From: Planctomycetota bacterium
GTDB taxonomy: Bacteria > Planctomycetota > Phycisphaerae > UBA1845 > UTPLA1
Direction: 5' to 3'
NCBI GenBank assembly: GCA_003576905.1
Contig: QEVG01000042.1
Span: 1 to 32,961, forward strand
DNA length: 32,961 nucleotides
The translations under genes and the position numbers were made by a program. Below, piece after piece: positions 2,690 to 32,961 of this stretch (the first letter of the stretch is position 1; the number at the start of each line of letters is the position of its first letter). The notes under the pieces were generated by a model, which was not told the DNA's origin, did not search any database, and saw only the letters and a list, made by a program, of their open reading frames with translations.

Positions 2690-2792
2690 GGCCGCCGCCG
2701 AGGTCGAAATAACGAAACCCCCGGACGGGTGCTGCCGATAATCCGGACGCAGTGCCCACCCGGAGCGTAAAATAGAGCGAGGAGTGTGCCCC

Positions 2793-3794: not shown

Positions 3795-3883
3795 CAGCGC
3801 CGCGGCGCGCGACGTGGACGGCCCCGGTCGGGCCGTCGGTACCGGGCGGCTGACCAACTACCACGCATGAAGGATCGCGATCC

Positions 3884-5509: not shown

Positions 5510-5517
5510 AGGCGACC

Positions 5518-7209
5518 ATGGATAATCCAGCGCCGCGCGTATTTGCCGGATCGACCCTGAACGACGTCGATCCGTCCGCGCTTCCACGCACCCTGCGCAG
5601 ACGCATTTTCGAGTCCACCGCGCTGAGCCAGTCGCTCGGACTTTACCTGCCGGCGACTGTCGCTTTCCGTCTCATCAACTTCGGACGGATACTCCTCCTG
5701 ACCTGGTGGATGAGCAAGCAGCAGTTCGGCCTGCTCAACATGATCCTCCTCGCCCTCAATGTCCTCACGCCCCTGTGCAGCCTCGGGCTGAACGAAGCCG
5801 TCACGCGCTATGTTCCCCAGCACGAATCGCGCGGCTCCCTGCGCCGCTTTTTCGGCCGCTCTTTCGGCCTCCTGCTCGCCATCACCGGCGTCAGCATTGC
5901 CGTCATGTGGCTGCTCGCCGAAAAGCTCGGCGTGTTCTTTTATGCCCAGGTCTTCACCGACGCCCGTGTCTTCGCGGAGTTTCGCGCAGAGGCCCCCGAA
6001 CTGGCCCGGCTCTCCGCCGTGGTGGTCGGATTGCTCATCGCCTACTTTTACCTTCTCGCCGTGATGAAGGGCCTGCGCATGTTCACGGCCCTGTCCTTCA
6101 TGGAACTCGTCCACGGGATCATCTTTCTCGTCCTCAGCGTTTTCGCCATCACCACGGGCCACCTCAGCGCCTTCACGCTCACGGCGCTCTACGGCATTTC
6201 GCTCTTCATTCCGATTGTCGTCTTCGGAGTCGGCCTGTTCCGCAGCATCTCGGAGGGCACCGCCGAGGAAAGCCCCCCCGAAGAGCACGACTGGGTCGTC
6301 AAACTGCTCCGCTTTTCCGTCTGGACCACGCTCGCCGGAATTACCTGGCAGGCCCTCGTCTATTACCCCACCTGGTTCCTCAACAAGGTCAACGGACACG
6401 ACGCCGTCGCCGTGTTCTCCGCCGTCCGCCAGATCGGCCAGTTCATTCTCGTCGGCGCGGTCGCCGTCGTTACCGTCGTCATGACCATCGTCACCAAGAC
6501 GTGGGAAACGCGCGGCCGCGAAGCCGCACAGCGCCAGCTCTCGCTCGCCTTTCGCGGAACCGGCCTCGGCCTGCTCGTCCTGTGCACCGTCCTCGCCTTG
6601 TGCAAGGACCTGATCATTCGCATGTTCCAGCGCGACTATGCGCCGGGGGCCGATGTCCTGCCCCTGCACCTGCTCTTTTTCCTCCTCGGCGCATACCTCG
6701 CCTTCCTGCCCATCCACTTTCAGCTCACCGAAAAGACCCGCCACATGTTCTGGCCCTGGGCCATCGGTGTGGCCGGCAACATGCTCTATGCCTTCTGGCT
6801 GGCCGGACCGGGCCTCCAGACCGTCAAGGGTTTCGAGATCTGGCGCGGCCTGTCGCGCGTCGTCGCGCCCTTCTTTGTGACCGGGTTCTCGGATCCGATG
6901 GGCCTGGGCAACGCGGCCTGGTGCGGGGTGTTCGCGATCTTTACGGCACTCCTTCTCTGCCTCGTCCTCATCCATAATGAGTGCTGCAAGCTCGACCGCG
7001 GCACCTACCTTGTCATCGCCGCTGCCGGCCTGCTCGGTTTGAACCCCTGGATTCTGACCGTCGGCATGATCGCCTTCATTATCCTCAGCTTCCAGACCGA
7101 ACTCGTTTTCACCGGCGCGGAGCGCCGACGAATCATCGGCTACATCTTCGGCGCCCTGTCCCATGTGCCGTCGGTCCGGCAGATTCTCCGATGGAAGAAC
7201 GGGGCCTGA
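5518..7209 (+). CDS. Wzx-like polysaccharide flippase (MOP superfamily)
   Basis: The predicted 563-residue integral membrane protein has roughly 12-14 hydrophobic helices and the N-terminal pattern of Wzx/RfbX-like exporters ('LINFGRILLLTWWMSKQQFG', 'SLGLNEAVTRYVPQ'). It should move undecaprenyl-linked repeat units across the inner membrane. The ATG at 5518 is preferred because GAAGG at 5508-5512 sits five bases upstream; an in-frame ATG at 5479 lies inside the preceding gene and has no such site. Its ribosome site overlaps the stop codon of the polymerase gene, so the two are probably co-translated. The next gene begins 25 bases after its stop. The family assignment is by topology and local motifs; the substrate is unknown. 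Confidence 0.85.
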   Translation: MDNPAPRVFAGSTLNDVDPSALPRTLRRRIFESTALSQSLGLYLPATVAFRLINFGRILLLTWWMSKQQFGLLNMILLALNVLTPLCSLGLNEAVTRYVPQHESRGSLRRFFGRSFGLLLAITGVSIAVMWLLAEKLGVFFYAQVFTDARVFAEFRAEAPELARLSAVVVGLLIAYFYLLAVMKGLRMFTALSFMELVHGIIFLVLSVFAITTGHLSAFTLTALYGISLFIPIVVFGVGLFRSISEGTAEESPPEEHDWVVKLLRFSVWTTLAGITWQALVYYPTWFLNKVNGHDAVAVFSAVRQIGQFILVGAVAVVTVVMTIVTKTWETRGREAAQRQLSLAFRGTGLGLLVLCTVLALCKDLIIRMFQRDYAPGADVLPLHLLFFLLGAYLAFLPIHFQLTEKTRHMFWPWAIGVAGNMLYAFWLAGPGLQTVKGFEIWRGLSRVVAPFFVTGFSDPMGLGNAAWCGVFAIFTALLLCLVLIHNECCKLDRGTYLVIAAAGLLGLNPWILTVGMIAFIILSFQTELVFTGAERRRIIGYIFGALSHVPSVRQILRWKNGA

Positions 7210-7234
7210 ACGCCGGCCTGCCGAGGGACGAAGC

Positions 7235-9442
7235 GTGACCCGGACGCCCTCCATCTCCGTCGTCATCTGCACGCGAAACCGCCCGCAGGCGCTGGCGGAA
7301 ACGCTCGCGTCCATCTGGCCGCAGTCGCGCCGACCCGACGAACTGATCCTCATCGACGATGGTGATCTCGATGCCGCCGTCCGGGACGACGTGGCCGCGC
7401 ACTGCTCCCGCCTCGGCGTCCGCTTCCTCTGCGAGAAGAACGCGCGGCCCGGCCTGACGCCGGGGCGCAACCTCGCCGCCCGCCTTGCAACGGGCGACGT
7501 GCTGTTCTATCTCGATGACGACGTCACATGCCGGCCCGACTGCATCGAACGCGTAGCGGCGCTCTTCGCGGATCCGGCCATAGCCGGCGTGACCGCCACG
7601 ATCGAAGAGCCGCGCTTCGAGTGCTCGCGTTCCGCGCGGCTGTATCAGCTTGGATATCGAATCGCCGCGTGGTGGCGCATCGCTCCGCGCACGGGGCCGA
7701 AGGGGCCGCCGCCGCGGATTCTTGAACGCCCCTGGGTCGCCACCCGCGCCCGCTGGCTTTCAGGCGCGGCAATGGCCCTGCGCCGAACAATCGTCCTTGA
7801 GCACCCGTTCGACGAGAATCTCGTCGAATACGCGCTGGGAGAGGATCGCGAAATGGGCTACCGCCTCGCATCGAGGTACTGGCTGCTCGAGTCGAAGCTC
7901 GCCCGCGTCGTGCATCGCCGCGACGGCGCCGCCCGAACCGAAAACCGGCGGCTGGGCTACATGACCGTCCGAAACTACCTCTATATCCTCGGCAAGACCT
8001 GCACGATCGGAGTCGGCGAGCGGCTCCTTATCGCGTGGAGCCTGTTTGTCGTCGCCTGCATGCACCTCGCCTGGAGTCTTGGCCCCGGCCAAAGAGGTCA
8101 CTTTTCCTCGCTGTGGGGAATGCTCGAGGGATTGGCCGCATCCCTCCGCGATCTTTGCGCCGCCCGGACTCCGCGCGGAACGCCGAATCCCCGCCGTGGC
8201 GCGCGGCCCGACATCGCCACCCCTCCCCTGACCATCGCGAACAGCGGCCGGAACGCGACGCCCCCGCGAAACGTCCTGTTCGTCACCAACCGGCTCGAAC
8301 CCGGCGGGGCGGAATTGATGCTGTTAGCCCTTGTCAAGCGCCTCTCCGCGCATGGCATCCGCCCCCACATCCTCTGCCTCAAGGACGGAGGACCGCTTGC
8401 CCCGGAGTGCCGCAGCTTAGGCATTCCCGTGTATGAAAAGATTCTTGAGCACCGGACGGACGCCGCGGCCATTTGCCGCATAGGGGGAATCATCGCCGAC
8501 AGCGCCATCGACGCCGTCGTCGTCGCGCACAGCGGCGGCGACCGCATGTTCTGGGCCACCCTGGCCGCCGCGCTGTCGGGCACCCCGGTCGTCGTCTGGT
8601 CCCATTGGTTCCCCCTGCCGAATCAGCATCACTTCGAGCGCGCCAACCGCGCCCTCTATCGCCTCGTGCAGGTTTTTGTCGCCCTCGGCGAGCGCCAGCG
8701 CCAGGCGCTTATCCGCCACGAGTACGTGCCCGCCGGGCGAATCGCCGTCATCCCGAACGCCATCGAACTCGATCGCTTCCGCCGGCACGACGTTTCCCGC
8801 GCCGAGGCCCGCCGGCGGCTTGGCCTGGCCGACGACCAGATCGCCGTCGCAATCATTGCCAATCTGCGTAGAGAGAAGCGGCACGACGTCTTTATCCAGG
8901 CCGCGCGCAACCTCGCACCGCGCGACGCGCGACTTCGTTTCCTGGTCATCGGCGACGGACCGGGCCGCGACGCCGTGCAATCATGCGCAGCCGCCTCCGG
9001 TCTCGATCCCGAAGTTCTCCGGCTGTTGGGGCCCCGCAGCGACATCGTGGAAATCCTGCCCGCGATCGACATTTCCTGTCTGTGCAGCGATCAGGAGTGC
9101 TTCAGCGTCACCATGCTGGAAGCCGCCGCGGCGGGTGTACCCTTTATCGGGCCCGACTCCGGCTGCATGCCCGAGTTCCTCGAACACCGAAAAACCGGCT
9201 TGCTCATCGAGCCTGCCGACCCCATCCAACTGGCCGAAGCCATTGCAGAACTCGCGCGCGATTCGGACCTCCGAACCGCCATTGCCGATGCGGCACGTCG
9301 GAAAGTACTCATCGGCTACGGTATCGAAAAAATGTCCGAGGCTTTCGCAGACCTCCTCCGGGCGACCGCCGCCGCGCCTTCTTCGTCGGCGCAAATCGAC
9401 CGCGATCGTCCACGCCGCTTGCCGGAATTCGCCGCCGTCTGA
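7235..9442 (+). CDS. Bifunctional GT2-GT4 fusion glycosyltransferase
   Basis: One 735-residue reading frame carries two glycosyltransferases. Residues about 5-250 form a GT2 (GT-A fold) domain: 'SVVICTRNRPQALAETLASI', 'ELILIDDGD', the metal-binding 'FYLDDDV' and the 'YALGEDREMGYRL' segment. A hydrophobic stretch follows at about 264-285 ('LLIAWSLFVVACMHLAWSLG'), then a Pro/Arg-rich linker. Residues about 345-715 form a GT4 (GT-B fold) domain with 'NVLFVTNRLEPGGAELM', 'VAIIANLRREKRHDVFI' and an EX7E motif in 'QECFSVTMLEAAAAGVP'. The GTG at 7235 is chosen because GAGGG lies 7 bases upstream. Both domains keep their motifs, so both may add sugars to the same repeat unit. No frameshift is visible at the junction. 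Sugar specificity is unknown. Confidence 0.88.
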   Translation: MTRTPSISVVICTRNRPQALAETLASIWPQSRRPDELILIDDGDLDAAVRDDVAAHCSRLGVRFLCEKNARPGLTPGRNLAARLATGDVLFYLDDDVTCRPDCIERVAALFADPAIAGVTATIEEPRFECSRSARLYQLGYRIAAWWRIAPRTGPKGPPPRILERPWVATRARWLSGAAMALRRTIVLEHPFDENLVEYALGEDREMGYRLASRYWLLESKLARVVHRRDGAARTENRRLGYMTVRNYLYILGKTCTIGVGERLLIAWSLFVVACMHLAWSLGPGQRGHFSSLWGMLEGLAASLRDLCAARTPRGTPNPRRGARPDIATPPLTIANSGRNATPPRNVLFVTNRLEPGGAELMLLALVKRLSAHGIRPHILCLKDGGPLAPECRSLGIPVYEKILEHRTDAAAICRIGGIIADSAIDAVVVAHSGGDRMFWATLAAALSGTPVVVWSHWFPLPNQHHFERANRALYRLVQVFVALGERQRQALIRHEYVPAGRIAVIPNAIELDRFRRHDVSRAEARRRLGLADDQIAVAIIANLRREKRHDVFIQAARNLAPRDARLRFLVIGDGPGRDAVQSCAAASGLDPEVLRLLGPRSDIVEILPAIDISCLCSDQECFSVTMLEAAAAGVPFIGPDSGCMPEFLEHRKTGLLIEPADPIQLAEAIAELARDSDLRTAIADAARRKVLIGYGIEKMSEAFADLLRATAAAPSSSAQIDRDRPRRLPEFAAV

Positions 9443-9611
9443 CCTCTCTCGGCCTCTCTATGGGCCAATAATCATACGCCGCAATTGTCCGACGCCCGGT
9501 TGCTTCGTAGAGTTAAGCAGGGAACGGCAAACTCACGGAACGACGATTGTGCCGTCGTTCGAACAGCCGCACCCATTTCCAACCGATACTCCCACCGGCT
9601 GCGCGGGAGGC

Positions 9612-9660
9612 TTGGAATCCGCCGCGAATTTCGCTAAGCTAAGCAGCCAGGGAAGCTTAG
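9612..9660 (+). promoter_or_regulatory. Possible promoter and 5' hairpin before the GT4 gene
   Basis: The 222-base gap between the fusion gene and the GT4 gene is the largest inside the cluster. It holds TTGGAA at 9612-9617 and TAAGCT at 9635-9640 with a 17-base spacer, a weak sigma-70-like pair (4/6 and 3/6 matches). A perfect 7-bp inverted repeat, CTAAGCT (9634-9640) and AGCTTAG (9654-9660) with a 13-base loop, ends four bases before the ATG and would cover the ribosome site. The inverted repeat is seen directly; any control function is inference. Confidence 0.3.
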
Positions 9661-9664
9661 AAGC

Positions 9665-10852
9665 ATGCAGGCCCTTTATTCGCCAATCAGCCGCACGCGC
9701 CCGACCTCGGTCGTCCATTTCGTTTCGACGTTTAAGGTAAAGACCGATACCAAGTGGCTGCTGCACCTCGCTCGACACCTCGACCGATCAGTGTTTCGCC
9801 TGTCCGTCGCCTGCTTCTATGAGGGCGGTCCGATCCAGGCTCAGCTCGAAGCCCTCGGCGTCCAGACGCTTAACCTCGACGTACCCGCCGAACACGACCC
9901 GCGCGCCATCCTCCGCGCCCGAAACTACATTGAACAATGCGATGCCCAGATCGTTCATACGCACCTGCTTCGCGCCGACCTGATGGCCGGGCTTGCCGCG
10001 CGCTGGGCGGCCGTTCCCGTGATCATTTCGACCTGTTATGCCCTGGGCGAATACCGCCGCGAGAAAAAGCGGCGATCCGACCGCCTGCTCGACTCGGTAT
10101 GTTCCGCGCTTCCGACACACACACTCGCGGTCTCAAAGGCCGTCGCGTTCGACTGCATTACGCGCCTGCACATGGACCCGCAGGACGTGTCGGTCATTCA
10201 CACTGGCATTGACCCGCCGGAGGGCGATTTCTCCGCGGCCGCCTCCGAATTTCGCGCCGCCCACAACGCCGTCGGCCGTCCGCTCGTCCTGACCCTCTCG
10301 CGCCTCAGCTACGAAAAGGGCATCGACGTCTTGATCGACGCCGCCGACGAACTCCGCACGCGCGTCTCGGATGTTCGGATCGTCGTCCTCGGGGAAGGCC
10401 CCGACCGCGCCGCGCTGGAGCAGCGAATTGACCGCATGGGTCTCCGCGACGTCGTCACACTCGCCGGCTTCTGCCCGGACGTATGGCCCGCCCTCGCCGC
10501 TTCGGATGTTGTCTGCTTGCCGTCAAAATCAGAAGGCATGCCCAACGCCCTGCTCGAAGCCATGGCCATGCGAAAGCCCGTCGTCGCCAGCTTCGTCGGC
10601 GGCATTCCCGAAGCCGTCATCGACGAAGTGAACGGACTGCTCGCCGAACCGGGAGACGCGGCAGCGCTCGCGGCCGGCCTGGCGCGCTGTCTGACGGATC
10701 CGACATTCGCCGCGCGCCTCGGAGAGGCCGCGGCCCGCACCGTTCATGAAAAGTTCCTGGCAAAGGACGCCGTGGCCCGATACGCAGCGCTTTATCGACA
10801 GGAACTCTGTCGACGGAGATCCACGCGTGACTTCATCGCCGCCGCAAGTTGA
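9665..10852 (+). CDS. GT4-family glycosyltransferase
   Basis: This is a 395-residue GT-B fold glycosyltransferase. The N-terminal half carries 'VHFVSTFKVKTDTKWLLHLA' and the typical search-and-shelter segments 'QIVHTHLLRADLMAGLAA' and 'VSVIHTGIDPP'. The C-terminal half carries 'VLTLSRLSYEKGIDVLIDAA', 'IVVLGEGPDRAAL' and the EX7E motif in 'SEGMPNALLEAMAMRKPVV', which binds the donor nucleotide sugar. It is cytoplasmic or peripherally membrane-bound and should extend the lipid-linked repeat unit. The ATG lacks a strong ribosome site and is preceded by a small hairpin. Its 3' end overlaps the next gene by 26 bases. The family is clear; donor and acceptor are not. Confidence 0.9.
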   Translation: MQALYSPISRTRPTSVVHFVSTFKVKTDTKWLLHLARHLDRSVFRLSVACFYEGGPIQAQLEALGVQTLNLDVPAEHDPRAILRARNYIEQCDAQIVHTHLLRADLMAGLAARWAAVPVIISTCYALGEYRREKKRRSDRLLDSVCSALPTHTLAVSKAVAFDCITRLHMDPQDVSVIHTGIDPPEGDFSAAASEFRAAHNAVGRPLVLTLSRLSYEKGIDVLIDAADELRTRVSDVRIVVLGEGPDRAALEQRIDRMGLRDVVTLAGFCPDVWPALAASDVVCLPSKSEGMPNALLEAMAMRKPVVASFVGGIPEAVIDEVNGLLAEPGDAAALAAGLARCLTDPTFAARLGEAAARTVHEKFLAKDAVARYAALYRQELCRRRSTRDFIAAAS

Positions 10853-18372: not shown

Positions 18373-20643
18373 TCATGAGCCCAACTGCGTCTTAAAAAAC
18401 CTCGCGATCCGCTCGTACAGCCGGATCGTCACCTCCGGCTCCGGGACCATGTGCGTAAAGCCGGCCAGCACAAGCAGGTCATACTCCTTGCCCGCCCGGA
18501 AAAGTGCTTCCGCCATCTTCAGCGTGTGCGTGAAATAGACGTTGTCGTCCGTCGTGCCGTGAATCAGCATCAGCGGCCGCTTCAGGTCTCCCGCGTAGGT
18601 CCGCACGTTGCACGCCCGGTACCCTTCCGGATTCGCCTGCGGCAAACCCATGTACCGCTCGGTGTAATGCGTGTCATAGTCCTCCCAGTCGATCACCGGC
18701 GCGCCGGCCACCGCCGCATGAAACACGTCCGGCCGTCTGCACACCGCCATCGCCGCGAAATATCCGCCGAATGACCAGCCATAGATGCCGACCCGGGTCA
18801 TGTCCATCTCGGCGTACTTCGCCCCGAGCGCCTGGATCGCCTCCGCCTGGTCCGACAGCGGGATGTCGATCAGGTTCCACGCCGTCGCACGTTCCCATGC
18901 CCGGCCCCGAAGAGGTGTGCCCCGGCCGTCAATCATCACCACCACAAACCCTTGGTCCGCGAACCACTGCTGCCGGAGGTACGCCCGACCCGACGCAGAC
19001 ACCACGGGATGCCCAGGCCCGCCGTACACGTAGTCCAGTACCGGGTATTTGCGCGATCTGTCAAAGTTGCGCGGGCGGATGACCGCCGCGTGATAGGTCC
19101 GGCCGCCCGCATCGACCGTCGTCAGTTCCACGTTCGCCGAAAACGGCGGAGCTTCCGCCGACGACGGCAGCGCCCGGCCCGTCGCCGCGTCGCGTTTCTT
19201 CAGTTCATACGATATCCGTCCGTCCAGCATCGAGGCCGTATGAACCCACGCACTGCCGTCCTTCGCAAAGTGGCCCCCATGCACGCCAACCCCCTCAGTC
19301 AACCGCGTCATTGCCCCCGTATCCAGCGAGACTCGATAGACGTGCTTCTGCGTTGGGTCCTCCGCGCCGGACACAATCACCTCGCGCCGCTCCGGTTGGA
19401 CCGACACGACTCCGAACAACCGCGCCCCTGCCGGACGTAGTGTCCTTTTCAGTGAACCGTCCCGCCCGCGCAACTCAAGTTCCCACTCGCCGCTCCGTTC
19501 CGACGTCCACAAGAACTCCTGCCCCGCGGCCAGCCACCGCGGCATGTCGCCGTCAATATTGATCCATGCCGAATCGGTCTCCCGCAAAAGTTCGCTTACC
19601 CGCCCCGTCTCCGGATCGACCCGGTACAGCACGGCCTCGCGCTGCTCCCGCGTCTGGACATACACCGTCAGCGGCGCGTCCTTGCCCCAGTGAACAGATG
19701 CAATGTACGGGTACTTCTCGCGGTCCCACTCGACCCACGTCGCCGCGCCCCCGGTCACCGGCACAATTCCAAGCCGCGTCCGCGCATTGTTCTTTCCCGC
19801 CCGCGGATAGCGCCACCCGCGCGGCGGCTGTTCCGGCCGTCTCGGATCGGCGATGTAAAGCGTCTCAACCTCGCGGTTGTCGACTTCCTCGAACGCAATC
19901 CACCGCGCATCGCCGCTCCACCAGTATCCGGTGAAGCGATGCATCTCCTCCTGCGCCACGAACTCCGCCACGCCGTTCGATACGTCCTCCGTCCCGCCAG
20001 TCGTCACCGCCCGCTCCGTCCGCGTCGCCAGGTCGGTCACATAAACGTCATAATCGCGCACGCACGAAACAAACCGCCCGTCCGGGGAGAACCGGGCGTC
20101 CATTGCCGGACCCGCGCCGCTTTCCGGCAGGACGATCGCCGTGCCGTCCACGCGGTTCACGACGTAGAGCCTGCCCGACAGGCTCACGAGCAGCTTGCTC
20201 CCATCCTCGGACATCTTGAACCAGGTGAACCCCCGGCCGATCTCGCGCATGCGCTCGCGTCGCGCCTTTTCTTCGTCCGTCAGCTTCTCGTCCGATCCGC
20301 CGAGCAGGTCCGCGACGCGCACAACCTCCCGCACCGTCCCGTCCGCCGTGTTCATTTCGTAAAGATTGCGAACCACGTCGCGCGGACCGCTCCGAAGAAA
20401 CACCACCGCGCCGCCGTCCGGAGTGATCTCCATCGAAGTCGGAAGACCGGCGGAGAAACCGTACGTCTCGGCGTGAAGCCGAAGAAAGCTCGTGTCCATG
20501 TCTCTCGTGTCAATGTGTGAGTATGGTGGCTGCGCGCAGCCCGTCATCGCCGCCGCGGCGATGACCAGCCCGGACAATCTTTCAATCGTCACCCATTCGG
20601 TTCGACGGATTGCCCGGCCCTGAGGGGGTTGAAACAGTCGCAT
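18373..20643 (-). CDS. Prolyl oligopeptidase-family S9B (DPP-IV-like) lipoprotein peptidase
   Basis: The 756-residue protein has an N-terminal export signal ending in a lipobox-like 'AAMTGCAQ', so it is probably anchored in a membrane outside the cytoplasm. Residues about 60-480 form the DPP-IV beta-propeller, including 'WIAFEEVDNREV', the Glu pair that binds the peptide N-terminus. The hydrolase domain follows: 'YGWSFGGYFAAMAV' holds the nucleophile Ser624, 'HGTTDDNVYF' the Asp at 699-700, and 'FTHMVP' His731. It should remove dipeptides from N-termini, usually after proline or alanine. The ATG at 20643 is chosen because AAGGA lies 10 bases upstream; an upstream TTG adds only a charged stretch. 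All catalytic residues are present. Confidence 0.93.
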   Translation of the reverse strand: MRLFQPPQGRAIRRTEWVTIERLSGLVIAAAAMTGCAQPPYSHIDTRDMDTSFLRLHAETYGFSAGLPTSMEITPDGGAVVFLRSGPRDVVRNLYEMNTADGTVREVVRVADLLGGSDEKLTDEEKARRERMREIGRGFTWFKMSEDGSKLLVSLSGRLYVVNRVDGTAIVLPESGAGPAMDARFSPDGRFVSCVRDYDVYVTDLATRTERAVTTGGTEDVSNGVAEFVAQEEMHRFTGYWWSGDARWIAFEEVDNREVETLYIADPRRPEQPPRGWRYPRAGKNNARTRLGIVPVTGGAATWVEWDREKYPYIASVHWGKDAPLTVYVQTREQREAVLYRVDPETGRVSELLRETDSAWINIDGDMPRWLAAGQEFLWTSERSGEWELELRGRDGSLKRTLRPAGARLFGVVSVQPERREVIVSGAEDPTQKHVYRVSLDTGAMTRLTEGVGVHGGHFAKDGSAWVHTASMLDGRISYELKKRDAATGRALPSSAEAPPFSANVELTTVDAGGRTYHAAVIRPRNFDRSRKYPVLDYVYGGPGHPVVSASGRAYLRQQWFADQGFVVVMIDGRGTPLRGRAWERATAWNLIDIPLSDQAEAIQALGAKYAEMDMTRVGIYGWSFGGYFAAMAVCRRPDVFHAAVAGAPVIDWEDYDTHYTERYMGLPQANPEGYRACNVRTYAGDLKRPLMLIHGTTDDNVYFTHTLKMAEALFRAGKEYDLLVLAGFTHMVPEPEVTIRLYERIARFFKTQLGS

Positions 20644-20916
20644 GCGGGGTGCTTCCTTTTTTCTCTTCGTGTTCAACGACGGCTCGGTACCGGGACGATA
20701 CCCGGCGCCGGCCCCGAAATGCTACCCCGCCCAGGCACCCCTGCCGGCTGCAAAAGGCGCAGAATCCACCCACGTGATTAAGTCCGCAACGTCCGAGAAG
20801 TGTTGAACCGGCCAGCCGTATCGCCCCGCAGGCGACCGGCAAACCTTAGAGATGTTCAAGGTATGAAGCTCGTTCGGCGGGCGAATGCGCCGCGTTCTTC
20901 TCGCCCCGCGGAGGGC

Positions 20917-21631: not shown

Positions 21632-22930
21632 ATGCCGCCGCTGCTCATGGACCTGCTTTACCTCCCCGCGGCGGCGCTCTATCTGCCATTCCTCCTTTAC
21701 CAGATGATCGTCCTCGGCAAGAACCGGCGCGGCTGGGGCCAGCGCCTTGGCGGCGTTCCCCTGCGCTCCGGCGATAAACCCTGCGTGTGGATTCACGCGG
21801 TCTCCCTCGGCGAGGTCAACGCCACCCGCACCCTCGTCGACGAGATAACCCGCCGTCTCCCGGATCACGACGTCGTCGTCTCCGCCACCACCGACACCGG
21901 CTATGCCGCCGCCCTGAAGCTCTATCCCGGCCGCATTGTCTTCCGCTATCCGCTCGACCTCTCGCCAGTCGTCCGGCGCGTCTTCCGCCGAATCCGCCCA
22001 GGCGCCATTATCCTGATGGAGCTTGAGGTCTGGCCCAACTTCATCACCCTCGCCCACCGCGCTGGAGTCCCCATCTGCATCGCCAACGGCCGCGTGACGG
22101 AAGAAAAGTCCATGCGCCGCTTTCGAAAACCCGTGATTCGGACCATCGCGCGGGGCATGTTCTCCCGCATCACATGGACCGCCGCACAGGACGAAACCTA
22201 CGCCCGGCGATTCGTCGAACTCGGCGTCGACCCCGACCGCGTGCACGTCGTCGGCAACCTCAAATACGACACGGCGGAAATCTCCGACAAGATCGCAGGC
22301 GCCGACGAACTCGCCGCAGCCATGGGAATCGACCGCACGCGCCCCCTCGTCGTCGCAGGCTCCACCGGGCCGGGCGAGGAGGAAATGCTGCTCGAAGCAT
22401 TCGAGACCCTGCGGCCCGGCATCGCCGGGCTTCAGCTCGCCATCATCCCCCGAAAGCCGGAGCGATTCGACGAAGTCGCACGGCTGATCGAGAGTCGCGG
22501 TTACGAATGCCGCCGCCGGAGCCGGATGCCCGACGGCGCGCGCCAGGACCCGCCCGCGGACCGGCCTGTTGTCTTCCTCGGAGACACCATGGGAGAGCTG
22601 CGCAAGTTCTATAGCCTCGCCACCGTTGTGTTTGTCGGGCGGTCGCTCGTGCCCCTCGGTGGCTCGGACGTGATGGAAGTCGCGGGTCTCGGCAAGCCGA
22701 TGTGCTTTGGACCATACATGGAAAACTTCGCCGAGGCGGTGCACGGGCTTCTTTCAGGCCAGGGCGCGATTCAGGTCCGAGATGCCGCCAATATGGCGCC
22801 CGCCCTGGACCGCCTCCTGAGCGACCCCGCCGCCTCGACCGCGTTCGGCGCAAACGCCCGCGCCTTTGTCGCCCGCAACACCGGCACGACAAAAAAAACC
22901 ATCGACCTCCTGATTGCCGCGATCCAGTAG
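21632..22930 (+). CDS. waaA: 3-deoxy-D-manno-octulosonic acid (Kdo) transferase
   Basis: The 432-residue protein matches WaaA/KdtA, the membrane-anchored GT30 enzyme that moves Kdo from CMP-Kdo to lipid A precursor on the inner face of the inner membrane. It begins with a short hydrophobic anchor ('LLYLPAAALYLPFLLYQMIV'). Next come 'KPCVWIHAVSLGEVNATRTL', with the Glu equivalent to the catalytic base, 'IILMELEVWPNFI', 'PICIANGRVTEEKSMRRF', 'VHVVGNLKYD', 'VVAGSTGPGEEE', 'VFLGDTMGELRKFYSLATVV' and 'SLVPLGGSDVMEVAGLGKP'. The ATG at 21632 lacks a clear ribosome site; an in-frame ATG five codons later is possible. Its presence implies Kdo-containing LPS. The last part of the gene is repeated at 26.8 kb. 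Confidence 0.96.
   Translation: MPPLLMDLLYLPAAALYLPFLLYQMIVLGKNRRGWGQRLGGVPLRSGDKPCVWIHAVSLGEVNATRTLVDEITRRLPDHDVVVSATTDTGYAAALKLYPGRIVFRYPLDLSPVVRRVFRRIRPGAIILMELEVWPNFITLAHRAGVPICIANGRVTEEKSMRRFRKPVIRTIARGMFSRITWTAAQDETYARRFVELGVDPDRVHVVGNLKYDTAEISDKIAGADELAAAMGIDRTRPLVVAGSTGPGEEEMLLEAFETLRPGIAGLQLAIIPRKPERFDEVARLIESRGYECRRRSRMPDGARQDPPADRPVVFLGDTMGELRKFYSLATVVFVGRSLVPLGGSDVMEVAGLGKPMCFGPYMENFAEAVHGLLSGQGAIQVRDAANMAPALDRLLSDPAASTAFGANARAFVARNTGTTKKTIDLLIAAIQ
22815..22885 (+). repeat. 71-bp perfect direct repeat, copy A (inside waaA)
   Basis: These 71 bases in the waaA C-terminal coding region are identical, base for base, to 26823-26893 on the same strand about 4 kb away. The translated segment is 'LSDPAASTAFGANARAFVAR' plus 'NTG'. 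Identity ends sharply on both sides. This copy continues as an intact gene end. Confidence 0.97.
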
Positions 22931-23178
22931 CTTCTGCGGTACCGCTCATTCGCGATCTTGTATCGCCGCGGCGCGTATCCGCCATGTGGAACCGCACGCC
23001 CCACGCGAAACCCGTGCCGCCAAGCGTCGCGTAGCGCGCGCCGGCGCGGCCGAGGGCTCCACGCCCTGCCCTATCAGCGAGATCGCGCGGAACGCTCGCC
23101 GGCGGGCGGGGCAAACGAAGTCAACGGCGAAAGAGACCGGAGCCGGATCCCCTCCCAGGCGCGCGGGCCCCGGCGACC

Positions 23179-26100
23179 CTACGGGTGCAGCAGCAGGTTG
23201 ACGAAGAGTTGCGTATCCAACCCGTTCACCACCGAGTCGTTGTTGATGTTTGCGGCGCAGAGCTCGTCGTACGGCACCGCCCGAGGCGTGAGCAGGACCG
23301 TCACAAACATGCCGATATCGTCGCCGTTGACGAGCGCATCCCCGCTCACGTCACCGATGCGCCGGTTCGGACAACCGTCGCAGGCGTCACCGATGCCGTC
23401 CCCATCAGCGTCTTCTTGATTCGAGTTCGAGTACTCGACACAGTTATCACACGCGTCGGGCAAACTGTCGGAGTCTGAATCAGACAGATTTCCCTCAAAG
23501 ATGTAGGCGGCCCCGGACTCGAACCCGAAACTGTCGTCATAGCGTGCACCAACAATTGCTATGGTTGGCCCGATATCCAGTGCGCAACTGAAGGCGTCAC
23601 GCCAATCCGCGTCCGGCGCAGTCAGTTTGGCCTGCTGGGTCCACGTCACCCCGCTGCGGACAAATACGAATGCCGCGCCGGAATTCGGTCCGACCTCATC
23701 GTCGCCATCCGGACCACCGACGATCACCATGTTTTTGTAGATTGCGACAGGAGAGCCGAAACCGGTTGCCCATGGCGAGTCCACCGAAATGAGCTTGGCC
23801 TCGAGCATCCACGAACTGCCATTTCGCGTGAAGACATACGCGGCCCCGGAATCGGATCGGGGCCCTCTGGCCCAGGGCGCTCCCACAACAGCGACATTCC
23901 CGTCCACCGCCACCGACGTACCAAAGTGATCACCGGCGGCCGCGTCGAAGGCAACGAGCTTGGCTTGCTGTGTCCACGTTTCACCGCTGCGGACAAACAC
24001 GTAGGCCGAACCTGAATCGAGACCGGCATCATCGTCAAGCGGCGACCCCACAATTACTGTTTCTCCGCTGATTGCAACGCCGTTACCAAATTTGTCACCG
24101 GTCGAGCCGTCTGGGGCAATGAGTTTGGCCTGCTCGAACCATGAGGATGCTGATCGCACAAAGACGTACGCAGATCCGGCATCTGCGGCGACGTCGTCGT
24201 TCAGGGGAGAACCTGCAATGAGCGTGTCGCCATTGATGCCGACAGACTGGCCGAACTTGTCAGTATAGGCGCCAGGCGATGGGGCGAGAATCTGTTGCAA
24301 GGACCACACCTCGCCGCTGCGGGTAAAGACATAAGCCGAGTTCTGATAAATCGACGTCACGACAGTTGTATCACCGCAGATGTCGACGGCGATTCCGCCT
24401 TGACAAATACCGGTCCCGGCACCAAGCCTGGCTTGCTCAATCCATGTGCCCTCGCTCTCGACAAGTACATATGCCGCTCCTCCATAGCCGAATCCCGGAG
24501 CACCGACAACAGCAGTACCGCCGCTGATGGCCACGGCAGCACCGAATTCGTCGTGTTCAGAAGCATCACTCGCGGTCACTTTCGAGCTCTGACTGAGTAT
24601 TGGACCACCCGGACAGACATCACAAGTGTCCCCGAGGCCGTCGACGTCGACGTCCCCCTGATCAGGGTTCCAATTGGTCGGACAGTTGTCGCAAACATCA
24701 CCGATCCCGTCGCTGTCGCTGTCGAGTTGATCGGCATTGGAGATTAGCGGGCAGTTGTCGCAGACGTCACCCATCCCGTCGCTGTCGCTGTCGAGTTGAT
24801 CGGCATTGGAGATCAGCGGGCAGTTGTCGCAGAAATCACTGACCCCATCCGAGTCCGTGTCGGGCGACATTGATCCGTCGTGATAGACCTCATCCGCACC
24901 GATATCTACGCGGCATGCCATGATACGAGGTTCGCCGTCCAGATCGGTCTGCGTCGGCGGGTCAGGCGTGAAGTAGGGATCGCCGGCATCGATACAGGGA
25001 GAGGTAAGCTGCAGGTGAATATCGAGGATCTTGTAGGAAGTACCCGTGGCACCAAGGCCGGCGAAGTCGCCCCATACCGTCACCTGGTTCGCCGTGTTAG
25101 AGACAATCAATGATTGCCTCCCCTGCGAAGTATCTGGATTCAGAAACGCCCCGGCCCACTGCCCCGCCGTCCAGTTCGCCGATGCATCGGTCAGCGTTGT
25201 TTGCATCGACTCCGGATCGAACACCGCGTTCATTGACCAATGACCTGTCGCGCCCGGACTGAACAATGGATCGGCTCCAATGTTGCCCTCGCCGCCAAGT
25301 GAACCAGTCAGGCCCTGGACAGTCGAATAGTTGATGTCGAGATGCTCGATTGCAAAAATTTGTGCATGCTCGTCTATCCCCTGCTTGTCCTCATTTGCCC
25401 ATAACAAGCTGGAGGATACTGCGTCCCAATAAGGAAGAAAGGCGCCCCCTACATCGATTGCGCGATTCTCGACTAACGTACAGTTAATTAGACGTGAGCC
25501 AGAATATAGTGCACCACCCTGACTCGCCGTATTTCCAACAAAGGCGCAGTTCACGAGGTCAATACTGCCATCCGTGCCATGCACCACTCCGCCAGTGCCG
25601 CCAGCAGAATTGCCGGCAAAGATGCACCCTCTCACTGTCTTATGCTCATCGTCGCCAACAAGAACGCATCCTCCCGCGTTCGAGGCAGAGTTCGAAATAA
25701 ACACCGAGTCACTAACCGTCAGCCAATTTCCCTCTTGCGCCCCAATCGCTCCCCCGTCCAACTCTGCCCGGTTTTCAACAAAAACGCACCGGACGATCTC
25801 CGCCCCATGTGCGAGCATCGCTCCGCCACTGGTTGAGTAGTTTCGAAAGAATCGGCAGTCGTGGATTCTCGACGGCAGTTCTCTGTAAGCATCGATAGAA
25901 AGCGCGGCGCCGTAAAGACCCCGGTTCTGAAGAAACGTGCAAGAACCAATGTCTACGGAGACGGTCTGGATGTAGGCCGCTGTGTCCTCCGCCCCATAAA
26001 TGCTCAAGCCATCAATGGTGACTACTCCCTCGGTGATCTCCAGCAATCTAAAACTGTTGTCCCCCCGGTTCGCGAACTCCGCCCCGTCATCCTCGTTCAG

Positions 26101-26469
26101 GTCTCCGCTCAGAATGGTCTTATAGCCGTCAATGTCCCGATCATCCGGGTCCGCCTCGCCGACACCGGCGTAGCCTCCGCGAAGCGAAAGCCCCCCGCGC
26201 GGAATGAACTTGATGTTCCGGTCTCCGCCCGGCCCCGTCGGGCGATAGGTCCCCTGCGCAATCCTGATCTCGTGAATGTTTGCGTCCGCAGCTGCCGCCG
26301 CCAACGCCGCCTGAAGATCGGTATAGGCCGTCTCCCACGTCATTCCGTCCCCGCCCGACGGCGCGTCATCGTCAACGTAAATGGTGGCGGCTGATGCAAC
26401 CGGTGCGGCTGCAAGCAGAAAGACAGAAACCATCCCCCGAACGCAATCGCGCTGTGATGCCAATCCCAT
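23179..26469 (-). CDS. Secreted multi-domain protein: beta-helix, thrombospondin type 3 repeats, seven FG-GAP-like repeats, dockerin-like end
   Basis: The 1096-residue protein starts with a signal peptide ('MVSVFLLAAAPVASA'). Residues about 30-530 are a right-handed parallel beta-helix of the kind opening 'TIYVDDDAPSGGDG', with repeated 'CxFxxN' turns. Residues about 534-620 are thrombospondin type 3 calcium repeats ('DSDSDGMGDVCDNCP'). Residues about 625-990 hold seven FG-GAP-like repeats ('DKFGNGVAISGETVIVGSP', 'GSAYVFVRSG'), one propeller's worth. A second thrombospondin type 3 stretch and a dockerin-like pair ('GDVSGDALVNGDDIG', 'NINNDSVVNGLDTQ') finish it. The ATG at 26469 is set by AAGGAGG six bases upstream; the longer frame upstream crosses the waaA fragment and is non-coding. 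It is probably a calcium-stabilised surface or matrix protein. Ligands are unknown. Confidence 0.9.
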   Translation of the reverse strand: MGLASQRDCVRGMVSVFLLAAAPVASAATIYVDDDAPSGGDGMTWETAYTDLQAALAAAAADANIHEIRIAQGTYRPTGPGGDRNIKFIPRGGLSLRGGYAGVGEADPDDRDIDGYKTILSGDLNEDDGAEFANRGDNSFRLLEITEGVVTIDGLSIYGAEDTAAYIQTVSVDIGSCTFLQNRGLYGAALSIDAYRELPSRIHDCRFFRNYSTSGGAMLAHGAEIVRCVFVENRAELDGGAIGAQEGNWLTVSDSVFISNSASNAGGCVLVGDDEHKTVRGCIFAGNSAGGTGGVVHGTDGSIDLVNCAFVGNTASQGGALYSGSRLINCTLVENRAIDVGGAFLPYWDAVSSSLLWANEDKQGIDEHAQIFAIEHLDINYSTVQGLTGSLGGEGNIGADPLFSPGATGHWSMNAVFDPESMQTTLTDASANWTAGQWAGAFLNPDTSQGRQSLIVSNTANQVTVWGDFAGLGATGTSYKILDIHLQLTSPCIDAGDPYFTPDPPTQTDLDGEPRIMACRVDIGADEVYHDGSMSPDTDSDGVSDFCDNCPLISNADQLDSDSDGMGDVCDNCPLISNADQLDSDSDGIGDVCDNCPTNWNPDQGDVDVDGLGDTCDVCPGGPILSQSSKVTASDASEHDEFGAAVAISGGTAVVGAPGFGYGGAAYVLVESEGTWIEQARLGAGTGICQGGIAVDICGDTTVVTSIYQNSAYVFTRSGEVWSLQQILAPSPGAYTDKFGQSVGINGDTLIAGSPLNDDVAADAGSAYVFVRSASSWFEQAKLIAPDGSTGDKFGNGVAISGETVIVGSPLDDDAGLDSGSAYVFVRSGETWTQQAKLVAFDAAAGDHFGTSVAVDGNVAVVGAPWARGPRSDSGAAYVFTRNGSSWMLEAKLISVDSPWATGFGSPVAIYKNMVIVGGPDGDDEVGPNSGAAFVFVRSGVTWTQQAKLTAPDADWRDAFSCALDIGPTIAIVGARYDDSFGFESGAAYIFEGNLSDSDSDSLPDACDNCVEYSNSNQEDADGDGIGDACDGCPNRRIGDVSGDALVNGDDIGMFVTVLLTPRAVPYDELCAANINNDSVVNGLDTQLFVNLLLHP
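24680..24886 (-). repeat. 69-bp tandem repeat encoding thrombospondin type 3 units
   Basis: Three units of 69 bases start at 24680, 24749 and 24818, each coding for 23 residues of the form 'DSDSDGxGDVCDNCPLISNA'. The second and third are almost identical at the DNA level, which suggests recent duplication or slippage. Aspartates and paired cysteines are kept, as expected for calcium binding. Confidence 0.85.
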
Positions 26470-26822
26470 GATGACCCTCCTTTGAGAACTGCGACGATTC
26501 GCCGACCCGCCGTCTTCGCCTCCGGCCCAGGGCAGATTGCTCTGCCAGTACATGGCGAATGGGTCAGATCCCCGTGTGAGAAGTGGCCCATGAACGGATC
26601 GATGCACGGGCGACCGCCCGCAAGCGAGTCGTCTGAATGCGTGCGCAAGCATACACCCGTTCGCTGACCTGCAAAAGGCAGGAACCACCGCTGCCACCTG
26701 TCGAAAGGGTGAGCATGGCGCAAGACGGAACTGTATCAACCTTGGATATTTCGGCCCGGGGGCAATCTCCCCATCCTTCAAGCGCCCGCCCGGCAATCCT
26801 GTCTTGTTGTACGCTGGCCCGA
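26470..26822. other. Upstream region of the beta-helix/FG-GAP gene, no gene seen
   Basis: This stretch holds the leader and presumably the promoter of the minus-strand gene starting at 26469. Apart from its ribosome site AAGGAGG I see no clear promoter pair. The long open frames across it on both strands lack ribosome sites and recognisable motifs and are best read as GC-rich chance frames. Confidence 0.35.
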
Positions 26823-26945
26823 TCCTGAGCGACCCCGCCGCCTCGACCGCGTTCGGCGCAAACGCCCGCGCCTTTGTCGCCCGCAACACCGGCGCGACCC
26901 GAAAAAACCGTCGACCTGTTCGCCACGTCGCTCCGCCGGGCATAA
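26823..26945 (+). pseudogene. Displaced second waaA 3' end (71-bp identical to waaA, then diverged)
   Basis: The first 71 bases equal waaA 22815-22885 exactly. Beyond that the DNA differs but the protein stays homologous. If one extra C around 26898-26900 is skipped, the frame reads 'TGAT', 'EKTVDLFATSLRRA' and stops at TAA 26943-26945, against 'TGTTKKTIDLLIAAIQ' in waaA. Upstream of 26823 the similarity is lost at once. The fragment is therefore the tail of a related Kdo-transferase gene with a natural stop, not just a copy of the neighbour. It cannot make a functional enzyme. It lies between the two propeller genes. Confidence 0.8.
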
Positions 26946-26970
26946 CCCCCGACGTCAGCCGACCGCGCAT

Positions 26971-28698
26971 TCACGGAACAAGCAGATCAAGAAACGCCTG
27001 CACGTCCGCTCCGTCCACGCTGCCGTCCGGCTGCATGTCCCCGTGAGAAATGGCGCAGTTCGGATTCCACAGCGCATATTCCGCCGGATCGAGCAGCGCC
27101 TGCACAAACGCGTCCACGTCGCCCATATCCACCGCGCAGTCGCAGTTCAGATTCCCGAGCGTCGGGCAGATCGCAAACACGTACGCCGCGCCGGCGTTCG
27201 TCGCGCTGTTGTTCGACTCATTGCCGTTGACCCCGACCGCGTTGCTGTCTTCAAGGGTCGCGCCCGCCGCGATCGTGCCCCCCGATAGCGCGACGGGAAA
27301 GCCGAAGTTGTCTCCCGTCGGCGTGCCTCCGCCGGGATTCGACGCCTTCAGATACGCCAGTTGGTCCCAGGTCGTCCCATCGCGTACGAACACATAAGCC
27401 GCTCCGGCCCCGCTGATGCTGTTGTCCGACTCGTCGCCGTTCACTCCCGAGTCGCCCCCGTCCTCCAGAAACGCGCCCGACACCAGCACATCGCCCGAGA
27501 CGCCGACCGAGTACCCGAACCGGTCGCCGGCGTCCGTATTGGAAGCCTTGAGGTACGCCTGCTGCGTCCACGTCGTGCCGCTGCGGACAAAGACATACAC
27601 CGCGCCCGCATTCGTGGCCGCGTTGTTCGAACCGTCGCCGTCGGCGCCCGTGGCGGCGCTGTCCTCCGTGGCCGCGCCGACCACCACCGTATCGCCGGAA
27701 ATACTGACCGACCCGCCGAAATTATCCTGCGCGCCGGTGTTTGACGCCTTCAGATATGCCTGCTGGCTCCACGTCGTGCCGTTCCGGACAAAAACATACG
27801 CCGCCCCCGACGCGCTCGCCGAGTTGTCCGTCTGAACCCCGTTCACCCCCGTCGCGGCGCTGTCTTCATATTGCGCCCCGACGACGAGCGTATCCCCGTC
27901 CAGCGCCACCGACGTGCCGAACTCATCGCCCGCCCCGGTGTTCGACGCTTTGATGTACGCCTGCTGCGTCCACGTCGTGCCGTTTCGCACATACACATAC
28001 ACCGCGCCCGACCCGCTCACGCTGTTGTCGGACGCGTTGCCGTTCACCCCCGTCGCCGCGCTGTCCTCAAACACCGCGCCCACCGCCACCGTGTCGCCAT
28101 CCACCGCCACCGACTTCCCATACCAGTCGTCAATGTCCGGGTGCGACGCCTTCAGGTAGGCCTGCTGCCCCCAGGCCGTTCCGTTTCGCACAAAAACGTA
28201 CGCCGCGCCCGCCCCAGACCGGCTGTTGTCCGCCGGATTGCCGGCCGCGCCGCTGTCCTCGTGATACGCACCGACGACAAGGGTGTCCCCCGAAATCCCT
28301 ATCGACTCCCCAAAACCGTCGCCGGCCTCCGAGTTGAGCGACTTGAGATAGGCCTGTTGCGCCCACGCACTGAACGAGCGCACAAACACGTACGCCGCGC
28401 CCGAGTCCGCGGCGCTGTTGTCCGACTGATTGCCATTCACGCCCTGCGCGCCGCTGTCCTCCTTCGGAGCGGCGACAGCCGCCGTGTCGCCCGAGACGGC
28501 GGCCGCCTGGCCGAACCGATCCTCTGACTGCGTGTTGGACGCCTTAAGATAGGCCTGCGGGACAACGATTCCACTCCGGAGGCCGCTGCGCGCCTGGCCG
28601 CCATCTTCCGGCTCATCTTCCCCCGCCCGCAGCGCGGCGTTTGCCGGTGCGAGCATCAGCCCGGCCAGTGCCAGGGCGGTGCGCAGACCCCTGCCCAT
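26971..28698 (-). CDS. Secreted seven-repeat FG-GAP protein with dockerin-like end
   Basis: The 575-residue protein has a signal peptide ('MGRGLRTALALAGLMLAPAN'), a short acidic linker and seven tandem repeats of about 66 residues. The repeat pattern is 'QQAYLKASNT..DxFGxSVAVSGDT', 'VVVGAxxEDSxATGVNG', then 'GAAYVFVRNGTTW'. Seven units suggest one seven-bladed propeller, perhaps calcium-binding through the Asp/Asn-rich loops. The last 65 residues form a dockerin-like pair ('GNLNCDCAVDMGDVDAFVQA' and 'DMQPDGSVDGADVQAFLDLL'). The ATG at 28698 has GGGAGG nine bases upstream; the long open extension upstream is arginine-rich and not signal-like. It is related to the FG-GAP part of the neighbouring minus-strand gene, but its repeats are longer and much more uniform. 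It is probably exported to the cell surface; no enzyme motif is seen. Confidence 0.9.
   Translation of the reverse strand: MGRGLRTALALAGLMLAPANAALRAGEDEPEDGGQARSGLRSGIVVPQAYLKASNTQSEDRFGQAAAVSGDTAAVAAPKEDSGAQGVNGNQSDNSAADSGAAYVFVRSFSAWAQQAYLKSLNSEAGDGFGESIGISGDTLVVGAYHEDSGAAGNPADNSRSGAGAAYVFVRNGTAWGQQAYLKASHPDIDDWYGKSVAVDGDTVAVGAVFEDSAATGVNGNASDNSVSGSGAVYVYVRNGTTWTQQAYIKASNTGAGDEFGTSVALDGDTLVVGAQYEDSAATGVNGVQTDNSASASGAAYVFVRNGTTWSQQAYLKASNTGAQDNFGGSVSISGDTVVVGAATEDSAATGADGDGSNNAATNAGAVYVFVRSGTTWTQQAYLKASNTDAGDRFGYSVGVSGDVLVSGAFLEDGGDSGVNGDESDNSISGAGAAYVFVRDGTTWDQLAYLKASNPGGGTPTGDNFGFPVALSGGTIAAGATLEDSNAVGVNGNESNNSATNAGAAYVFAICPTLGNLNCDCAVDMGDVDAFVQALLDPAEYALWNPNCAISHGDMQPDGSVDGADVQAFLDLLVP
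27165..28565 (-). repeat. Seven tandem ~198-bp repeats encoding the FG-GAP units
   Basis: Units of about 198 bases (66 codons) recur across this interval, visible as repeated reverse complements of the 'QAYLKAS' and 'GAAYVFVR' codons. The central units (third to sixth) are the most alike. The first and seventh are the most diverged, as is usual when internal units expand by recombination. Confidence 0.8.
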
Positions 28699-29075
28699 CG
28701 TTTCCACCCTCCCAACCGTCCATCTGCCGCGGACGCTTTGCCTCTTCGGCTCGCTCGCCGCCGGCCCGCGACACTTCCATGATACCGCCGGGCACCCCTC
28801 CCGAAAAACTTGCCGCGGACCGGCACGACGGATTTCCCCCGGCGCAAACCGGGTTTTCAGCCGGAAAATCGGCATGGGCGGCGTGGCGACGGCACATTGA
28901 CGCGCCCTTTTTGCCCCGCCGCGCCGGCGCACTCCGCGTTTGGATCCTGCCCGGCCGCCGGCCGGCCCGACCGATGCGGGCGAAAGTGTCATAATCGCGG
29001 CACTCACCGGCGTCCGCTTCGCGCCGCGCCGCCCCAACCGACTCGGAGCCGCGACGCATCCCGCCGCCACCGCCC

Positions 29076-29108
29076 CTGTCGACACCGACAGCCTGTCGAC
29101 TCCGACAG
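29076..29108. promoter_or_regulatory. Tandem pair of palindromic sites, CTGTCG-N4-CGACAG twice
   Basis: CTGTCGACACCGACAG (29076-29091) is followed by CTGTCGACTCCGACAG (29093-29108), 17 bases centre to centre. Each is a perfect 6-bp inverted repeat with a 4-base centre, and the two differ at one base. Two identical dyads about one and a half helical turns apart look like paired operator sites for a dimeric regulator. The regulator is unknown. Confidence 0.5.
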
Positions 29109-29174
29109 CCGCGCCGCGTTTTTGCGCGCCATCGCACACGCGCGCGACTTCGCGGCGCTCGAATCCGCGCATTG

Positions 29175-29201
29175 CACAGGAAAAAATCAAAAAAACCTGT
29201 G
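29175..29201. repeat. Inverted repeat CACAGG/CCTGTG around a 15-base A-rich centre
   Basis: CACAGG at 29175-29180 and CCTGTG at 29196-29201 flank AAAAAATCAAAAAAA. The A-tract is exceptional in this GC-rich DNA and would be bent. It may be an operator or a bent upstream promoter element for the PEP-CTERM gene. It does not look like an intrinsic terminator. Confidence 0.35.
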
Positions 29202-29342
29202 ATTGCGTTTCCATCCGCACGCGCGTTTCGGTACGCTGACGGGCACACATCAAATCGGGCTCGCGCCATGCTCCGGGTCAAAGAGTTCGCGATGCCCTTG
29301 GCACGGATCGGCCGCACATCCCGGCCGAAAAGGAGGAAGAAA

Positions 29343-32118: not shown

Positions 32119-32719
32119 GGATGACCACTCCGGTTCCGTTTATGCGCTGCCTAAATGATTAGGCCAATCCGTCTCGCAGTTGGTGAGGTCTCTGCAGGGC
32201 GCAACAATCTTCTCCGAGGGGGCCAACAAATCAAGCCGGGCCATTCGATTTCGACGGGACGGCAGAGCCACCAGCCTCCCACTCCCACTCCCACGCCTAC
32301 CGGCTCCTAGCGGAATTTTTTTCGCCTCTCCCATACTCGTTCTGTTACCTCCGGCATTGACTCCGGCCCTGGCGGCGCTGACCGTTCGGAACAGTCACCT
32401 ATTACTGACGTTTTCGGGGTTCTTGCCACCTTCGTCAATGCTCGCGCCGGACCGTTCCGGAAGCTATTCACCATTGCCATGATCCCGTTTTCACCCCCGG
32501 CGCGTCAACTCTTTTCGCGCGCGGGCGTCCGGGCCCCGCCCTGTTCGACAGGCTCGGGCGCGGGGTGTTGCGCGTCCCCGCCGTAAGGGCAGTCTGTTTC
32601 CTCCCTGCCCCCTGGCCCCCGCCCCGCACAGCCCCGAGCACCAGCGAGCGGGGATTCCCGGCGCGACCGTGCCACACACGCTGTCACTCGCCCAGTGCCT
32701 CCGACCCCCGCCCTCTCCC

Positions 32720-32751
32720 GGTCCCGAAGGGACCGCGCATGCGGTTTTTTT
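32720..32751 (+). terminator. Intrinsic terminator-like hairpins with T-run
   Basis: A GGTCCC-GAA-GGGACC hairpin (32720-32734) overlaps a second one, ACCGC-GCAT-GCGGT (32732-32745), whose stem runs straight into seven Ts (32745-32751). This is a plausible plus-strand intrinsic terminator. The nearest plus-strand gene ends 2.5 kb upstream, so it may end an unseen RNA or be part of the repeat region. Confidence 0.4.
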
Positions 32752-32752
32752 G

Positions 32753-32773
32753 TTCCCTGTTCCCTGTTCCCTT
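32753..32773. repeat. TTCCCTG short tandem repeat (three 7-base units)
   Basis: Two perfect units and a third with one end change follow the T-run of the terminator-like hairpin. Such CAGGGAA/TTCCCTG arrays occur in many planctomycete and cyanobacterial intergenic regions, to my recollection, and have no known function. Confidence 0.6.
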
Positions 32774-32887
32774 CTTGAATGTTCGACGTTTCGCGCCCGC
32801 GCACACCACTCTTCGTGCCTCCGTGTCTTTCGCGACCCCCGTTTCGACGTTTCAAGAAGGCGCGCACGGCGAGCAAGGAGGAAGGTC

Positions 32888-32961
32888 ATAACCCGCGAGA
32901 ACGAGCCGGCGATCGCGCGGACGCCCCCGCGCCGCTCGCCCCGCCCGCTCCGCGCCCGGAG
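32888..32961 (+). CDS. Possible start of a gene running off the right edge (ATA start)
   Basis: A near-perfect ribosome site, AAGGAGG at 32875-32881, is followed six bases later by ATA at 32888 and a frame open to the window end ('TRENEPAIARTPPRRS'). No ATG, GTG or TTG lies at the right distance. Either the start codon is a rare ATA, or an ATG has mutated or been misread, or the site is fortuitous. The visible part is Pro/Arg-rich and unrecognisable. Confidence 0.2.
   Translation, partial: MTRENEPAIARTPPRRSPRPLRAR

Follow-up and report, generated by a model that had tools for sequence, protein, structure and literature searches.

A fragment of about 4 kb, carrying a large propeller gene (propA) together with the 3′ end of another waaA allele, probably recombined into the waaA gene of a Planctomycetota bacterium, replaced the last 14 residues of the encoded Kdo transferase and left a remnant of the original ending on its far side. 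We base this reading on a window that spans the whole stretch of DNA analysed (32,961 nucleotides) and constitutes the entire contig 1 of a 65-contig genome. The locus is best read as a gene-acquisition scar of an already familiar type, here with a swapped gene ending, and it may provide a readable record of how large surface-protein genes, which abound in these planctomycetes, can be acquired next to a housekeeping gene that stays intact. Its parts are as follows.

18373..20676, minus strand: S9 peptidase, the conserved left neighbour that adjoins waaA in relatives
21632..22930, plus strand: waaA (Kdo transferase), intact, 432 aa, ending in tail1; Pfam Glycos_transf_N, 1.7e-53
22815..22885, plus strand: repeat copy 1, 71 bp, within waaA, an exact match to copy 2
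22886..22930, plus strand: tail1, which putatively replaces the original waaA 3′ end (14 codons and a stop); waaA-like when scored alone and different from tail2
22931..23178, no strand: intergenic stretch of the putative insert, GC-rich (0.689 including tail1), with no coding match
23179..26469, minus strand: propA, 1,096 aa; Pfam Beta_helix, TSP_3 and FG-GAP_2, found on the longer open reading frame (ORF) 23179-26970
26470..26822, no strand: upstream region of propA and right end of the putative insert, with few short matches in other genomes
26823..26893, plus strand: repeat copy 2, 71 bp, an exact match to copy 1 and the beginning of the waaA remnant
26894..26945, plus strand: tail2, the remnant waaA 3′ end, frameshifted, with its own stop; probably ancestral
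26971..29253, minus strand: propB, a second FG-GAP propeller gene and the right-hand neighbour; Pfam FG-GAP_2, 1.3e-66

The resident waaA combines the Glycos_transf_N domain with full length, and its product matches the WaaA proteins of two same-genus genomes end to end at 68 and 69% identity. It is preceded by a short ORF that we take to be SEC-C-like, also present in one of the relatives (G002). Between the repeat copies propA is the sole recognised gene, the stretch 22931-23178 holding overlapping ORFs without a Pfam match. The window has no tRNA genes, and Rfam gave no match at the gathering score.

The original prediction started from the exact recurrence at 26823-26893 of a 71-base block near the 3′ end of the intact waaA (22815-22885), and this recurrence is borne out, with a spacing of 4,008 bases. 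Local alignment around the repeat reaches 92% over 105 columns, and across the genome two places alone match the repeated part of waaA (E 0.001). On the 5′ side of copy 2 no similarity to waaA is detectable (256 of 2,000 control stretches from the window score equally), nor is any past both endings (570 of 2,000). The two endings themselves part immediately after the repeat and are alike, with none of 2,000 window controls reaching the score of tail1 against tail2. Behind copy 2 lie 52 bases of a differing, frameshifted waaA ending that, once one frameshift is passed, reads as a waaA-like end with its own stop; the frameshift is confined to the remnant, and waaA with tail1 is in frame.

Each ending is recognisable without the shared block. 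A complete waaA end was available in 87 of 90 related loci, and single-ending scoring used 81 of these, leaving out 6 without a usable motif. Against those 81 ends tail1 alone scores 18.3 bits, a value reached by 1 of 10,000 shuffles, and tail2, read through its frameshift, scores 16.0 bits, reached by none of 10,000; related ends scored in the same way have a median of 19.7 bits. In a six-frame scan of the window only 1 of 55,263 ten-residue stretches, with tail1 itself included, reaches the score of tail1 or tail2. A 75-residue profile built from the 87 loci gives 81 bits for tail1 and 84 bits for tail2 read through, mostly from the part that they share. In tail1 a threonine occupies the alanine position of the GAT motif, giving GTT; GAT is present in 78 of the 87 loci and GTT takes its place in one (L132). 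Two further claims of the original prediction thus stand: translation and the ending scores agree with a diverged second Kdo-transferase-like tail that reaches a stop after one frameshift, and the endings on either side of the beta-helix/FG-GAP gene are different and each waaA-like (1 and 0 of 10,000 shuffles). Because both endings are waaA-like and resemble each other, the segment appears to have brought its own waaA end. Conservation is poor across the 23 residues encoded by the block, the best of the 87 related loci sharing 13 and the mean being 8. The identity of the two copies at the DNA level therefore suggests that they arose recently from one sequence, and protein constraint does not explain it.

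These features can be accommodated by a short series of events. About 4 kb of DNA, bearing propA as well as a 3′ end from a different waaA allele, would have integrated in the last part of the resident waaA. With the left junction inside waaA sequence, the gene would have stayed open and gained the incoming 14-residue ending; at the right junction, the DNA upstream of propA would have been joined to the second copy of the 71 bp and the original ending, which, cut off from a whole gene, now carries a frameshift. The incoming fragment may have re-circularised and entered by one crossover where the two waaA sequences match; alternatively, one of its ends may have joined by homologous recombination and the other illegitimately. 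Part of the target gene can become duplicated by either route. Since the newcomer would have brought a waaA end with it, recombination at waaA, rather than transposition, is the most likely process. Direct repeats bracket the segment, which makes its outer flanks likely to be ancestral, and tail2 with propB therefore probably represents the older arrangement, with tail1 and propA as the later arrivals. We infer the insertion from the topology of the locus, as neither an empty-site relative nor a donor was found in the searches described below; the order of events, the ancestral standing of tail2, an outside source of the DNA and the route are inferred as well. Of the earlier claim that the gene and a new waaA end were inserted by homologous recombination, the insertion with a new end is now the best reading, and the homologous route is plausible.

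We favour single-crossover insertion-duplication as the candidate route. In Escherichia coli crosses with lacZ ends, incoming DNA that shared a gene end with the recipient gave mostly partial end duplications, which were ascribed to a single crossover (PMC3240628). As there, a duplicated piece of the target gene flanks the segment in direct orientation; the duplications in those laboratory crosses measured 109-950 bp, whereas here the repeat has 71 bp, a diverged ending follows it and the setting is a natural genome. A simple crossover between two alleles does not fully account for 71 identical bases that give way at once to divergence. The locus also resembles homology-facilitated illegitimate recombination in having one homologous and one apparently illegitimate junction, but that process generally deletes host DNA and mostly uses microhomology of 3-10 bp (PMC3240628); here a piece of the target is duplicated, and there is no significant similarity just before the right junction. 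The score there is reached by 731 of 4,000 random stretches, and a microhomology of 3-10 bp would be too short to stand out in this comparison.

The propeller gene itself bears on where the fragment came from. The product of propA runs from a signal-peptide-like start through a beta-helix, thrombospondin type 3 repeats and FG-GAP repeats to a dockerin-like C terminus, the first and last labels being read off the sequence by eye and not by search. The listed ORF starts at 26970 and reads across the waaA remnant. That start is probably spurious and the true one the ATG at 26469, because the signal-peptide-like stretch follows it directly and a propA paralogue encoded on contig 29 aligns up to this residue and is just 10 residues longer (with the query cut at 26469); annotation by the longest propeller ORF would take in the remnant. 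Matches to propA occur in all 114 genomes of the order, and the closest among them is this contig 29 paralogue from the same genome (L143 10219-13929, G000), at 56% identity over 609 residues. It has a similar build, with an identity of 53-56% across the N-terminal half that falls to about 45% beyond it. Among 749 long ORFs, propA ranks at the 3rd percentile in GC content (0.583), which weakly suggests a foreign origin, but only at the 11th in GC3; low GC is a weak sign of such an origin, because the contig 29 paralogue is low as well (0.602). The stretch beside tail1 is as GC-rich as the host. A foreign origin of the waaA ending is instead suggested by the difference between the two endings.

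Related loci were then compared for the donor, the empty site and further occupied sites. We sought copies of the waaA end both up- and downstream of waaA in 90 related loci and the window, some genomes being represented twice; 61 of the 90 (62 of 91 with the window) extend at least 4 kb downstream. No duplicated waaA end was seen in any of the 90. At E 0.01, 13 of the 91 rows gave matches: the window with its 105-column match, ten rows with short DNA matches (13-27 bases), and L074 and L088, in which a weak protein match of 32 and 30 residues, respectively, lies upstream of waaA. The S9 peptidase adjoins waaA in three of ten relatives compared (G001, G002 and G010), and the genes downstream of waaA differ in the same-genus G001 and G002. 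The closest genomes, at 68-69% WaaA identity, have other downstream genes and provide no empty site. The original prediction had proposed looking for relatives in which waaA is followed directly by the smaller propeller gene; this finds no support, as propB has no match in the 90 loci (E 1e-4) and G001 and G002 differ downstream. The lone match to propA near a related waaA is a weak one in L137, which lies some 3.4 kb beyond waaA and covers 175 residues at 29%.

No donor was found in the other genomes of the order or in the viral contigs and plasmids searched, the viral contigs having been queried with a 40-base piece of the repeat. Among 113 other genomes of the order, short matches at E 0.01 (20-52 bases over both sides) were seen in 23 for the left flank of the putative insert and in 8 for the right flank (27-42 bases, best E 1.9e-5). 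About 40 bases at 26488-26527, some 20-60 bp before the propA start, are matched at 82-90% in five of these eight, with no common neighbouring gene obvious among the ORFs of the five. Homology beyond the endings, which would suggest an orthologous waaA-propeller locus in the donor, was hinted at by a MAFFT alignment but finds no support, 570 and 656 of 2,000 controls scoring equally.

The main rival to a single crossover is a recombinase acting in trans. The 4-kb segment would then be either a small cassette of the integrative type or what deletion has left of a larger island, with an attachment site that mimics the waaA 3′ end; we regard this as unlikely. Such integrations usually leave direct repeats at the 3′ end of a gene, the element supplying a new ending and the old one remaining at the far side. 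The locus has this anatomy, with direct repeats at the waaA 3′ end and the gene end rebuilt, and the genome holds 11 Phage_integrase matches, 10 of them above the cut-off. Against this, contig 1 has no Phage_integrase match and no recombinase gene was found inside the segment (Pfam on the tested ORFs, Phage_integrase family); the segment ends share no inverted repeat beyond an 8-base match; and the related loci, as described above, are without the duplication. Integrase homologues near related waaA genes were seen in L073 and L119 only, upstream of waaA, in what is a weak test with 11 query ORFs, several of them ill-chosen. The same repeat scan did, by contrast, detect an ordinary-looking island in L119. 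This probable genomic island (2386-9859) is bounded by a 50-bp repeat; a tRNA-Arg gene upstream of waaA contains one of the copies, and an integrase-like match adjoins the other.

Among described elements, the segment shares direct repeats with those that integrate at gene 3′ ends, such as SGI1 at trmE (PMC8409611), but differs from them in having one gene, no integrase found and no occupied site in the relatives examined. It is also like the microcin H47 island, a small segment with direct repeats and without its own recombinase that excises and integrates, which lends the trans-acting reading some plausibility; that island has 13 kb and its excision and integration were detected by experiment (PMC3191183), whereas the present segment has 4 kb. 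A more specific version is that of a single-gene mobile cassette using the waaA end as its attachment site, again with a recombinase in trans, in which each insertion would swap a large surface protein together with the C terminus of a lipopolysaccharide (LPS) enzyme. We consider this quite improbable; if true, it would give these planctomycetes a small, testable mobile unit.

It is also improbable that two full waaA paralogues once flanked propA and that the second lost its 5′ part while gene conversion homogenised the 71 bp. Both endings are waaA-like, as that history predicts, and a pair of PEP-CTERM-like genes on contig 13 with a near-identical 3′ end raises the prospect that 3′ ends are homogenised in this genome. 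However, the start of copy 2 is also the limit of identity, so the ends of the deletion and of the conversion would have to coincide, and no relative has two full waaA genes. A waaA match was present in 55 of 60 relatives, one match in 47 and two in 8; for six of the eight, the second match is to the remaining half of the gene already matched, and for two it is weak, partial and on another contig. The alternative in the original prediction of two full waaA genes followed by gene loss accordingly finds no backing among these 55 relatives.

It is very improbable that an assembly error at the 71-mer, or the merging of two strains, produced this locus, even in a 65-contig draft. Contigs 3 and 4 (C3 and C4) start with the same 99 bases, the sole overlap among the 23 of 130 contig ends compared, and the last 99 bases of contig 1 are the reversed last 99 of contig 14 (92,541 bases). 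Exact 99-base overlaps in two places suggest an assembly graph with k probably near 99, so that the 71-base repeat would be resolved within single k-mers, each k-mer across it carrying flanking sequence; the assembly join that had been proposed earlier is thus unlikely. Partner swapping at the repeat, moreover, cannot by itself explain why propA upstream DNA abuts the repeat. If the four flanks were paired differently, both unusual junctions would still have to exist, and the outcome would be a frameshifted waaA and a free circle of 4,008 bases, and no simpler locus. In the assembled waaA the reading frame continues across copy 1 to an ending that is waaA-like. That propA was instead duplicated from elsewhere in the genome and joined to a waaA end by template switching is highly improbable, for although its closest relative is the contig 29 paralogue (56% over 609 residues), a gene so distant is no recent source, its DNA matches fall solely inside the coding part of propA, and tail1 would still require another waaA allele.

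Beyond this locus, exact repeats of at least 44 bp were listed in 1.63 of the 4.71 Mb of the genome (26 stretches), giving 21 intervals. The waaA pair, the pair of genes on contig 13, contig overlaps and propeller-type genes (on contigs 29 and 43) account for 2 intervals each; the other 13 were assigned, on the basis of their partners, to one dispersed repeat. A process recurrent in this genome was considered and rejected, there being no second gene-end remnant among the 21. A dispersed repeat occupies 32380-32961 of the window and has 45 listed genome matches (its own included), several near contig ends; it has no counterpart in Rfam, and the single ORF tested has none in Pfam. The two contig 13 genes (L190, G000; 523-1152 and 1404-2039) are neighbouring, diverged and PEP-CTERM-like, with the Pfam PEP-CTERM match below the cut-off in both; their last stretch is near-identical, exact over 51 bp and longer with few mismatches, and covers the sorting signal, a possible second case of a homogenised 3′ end.
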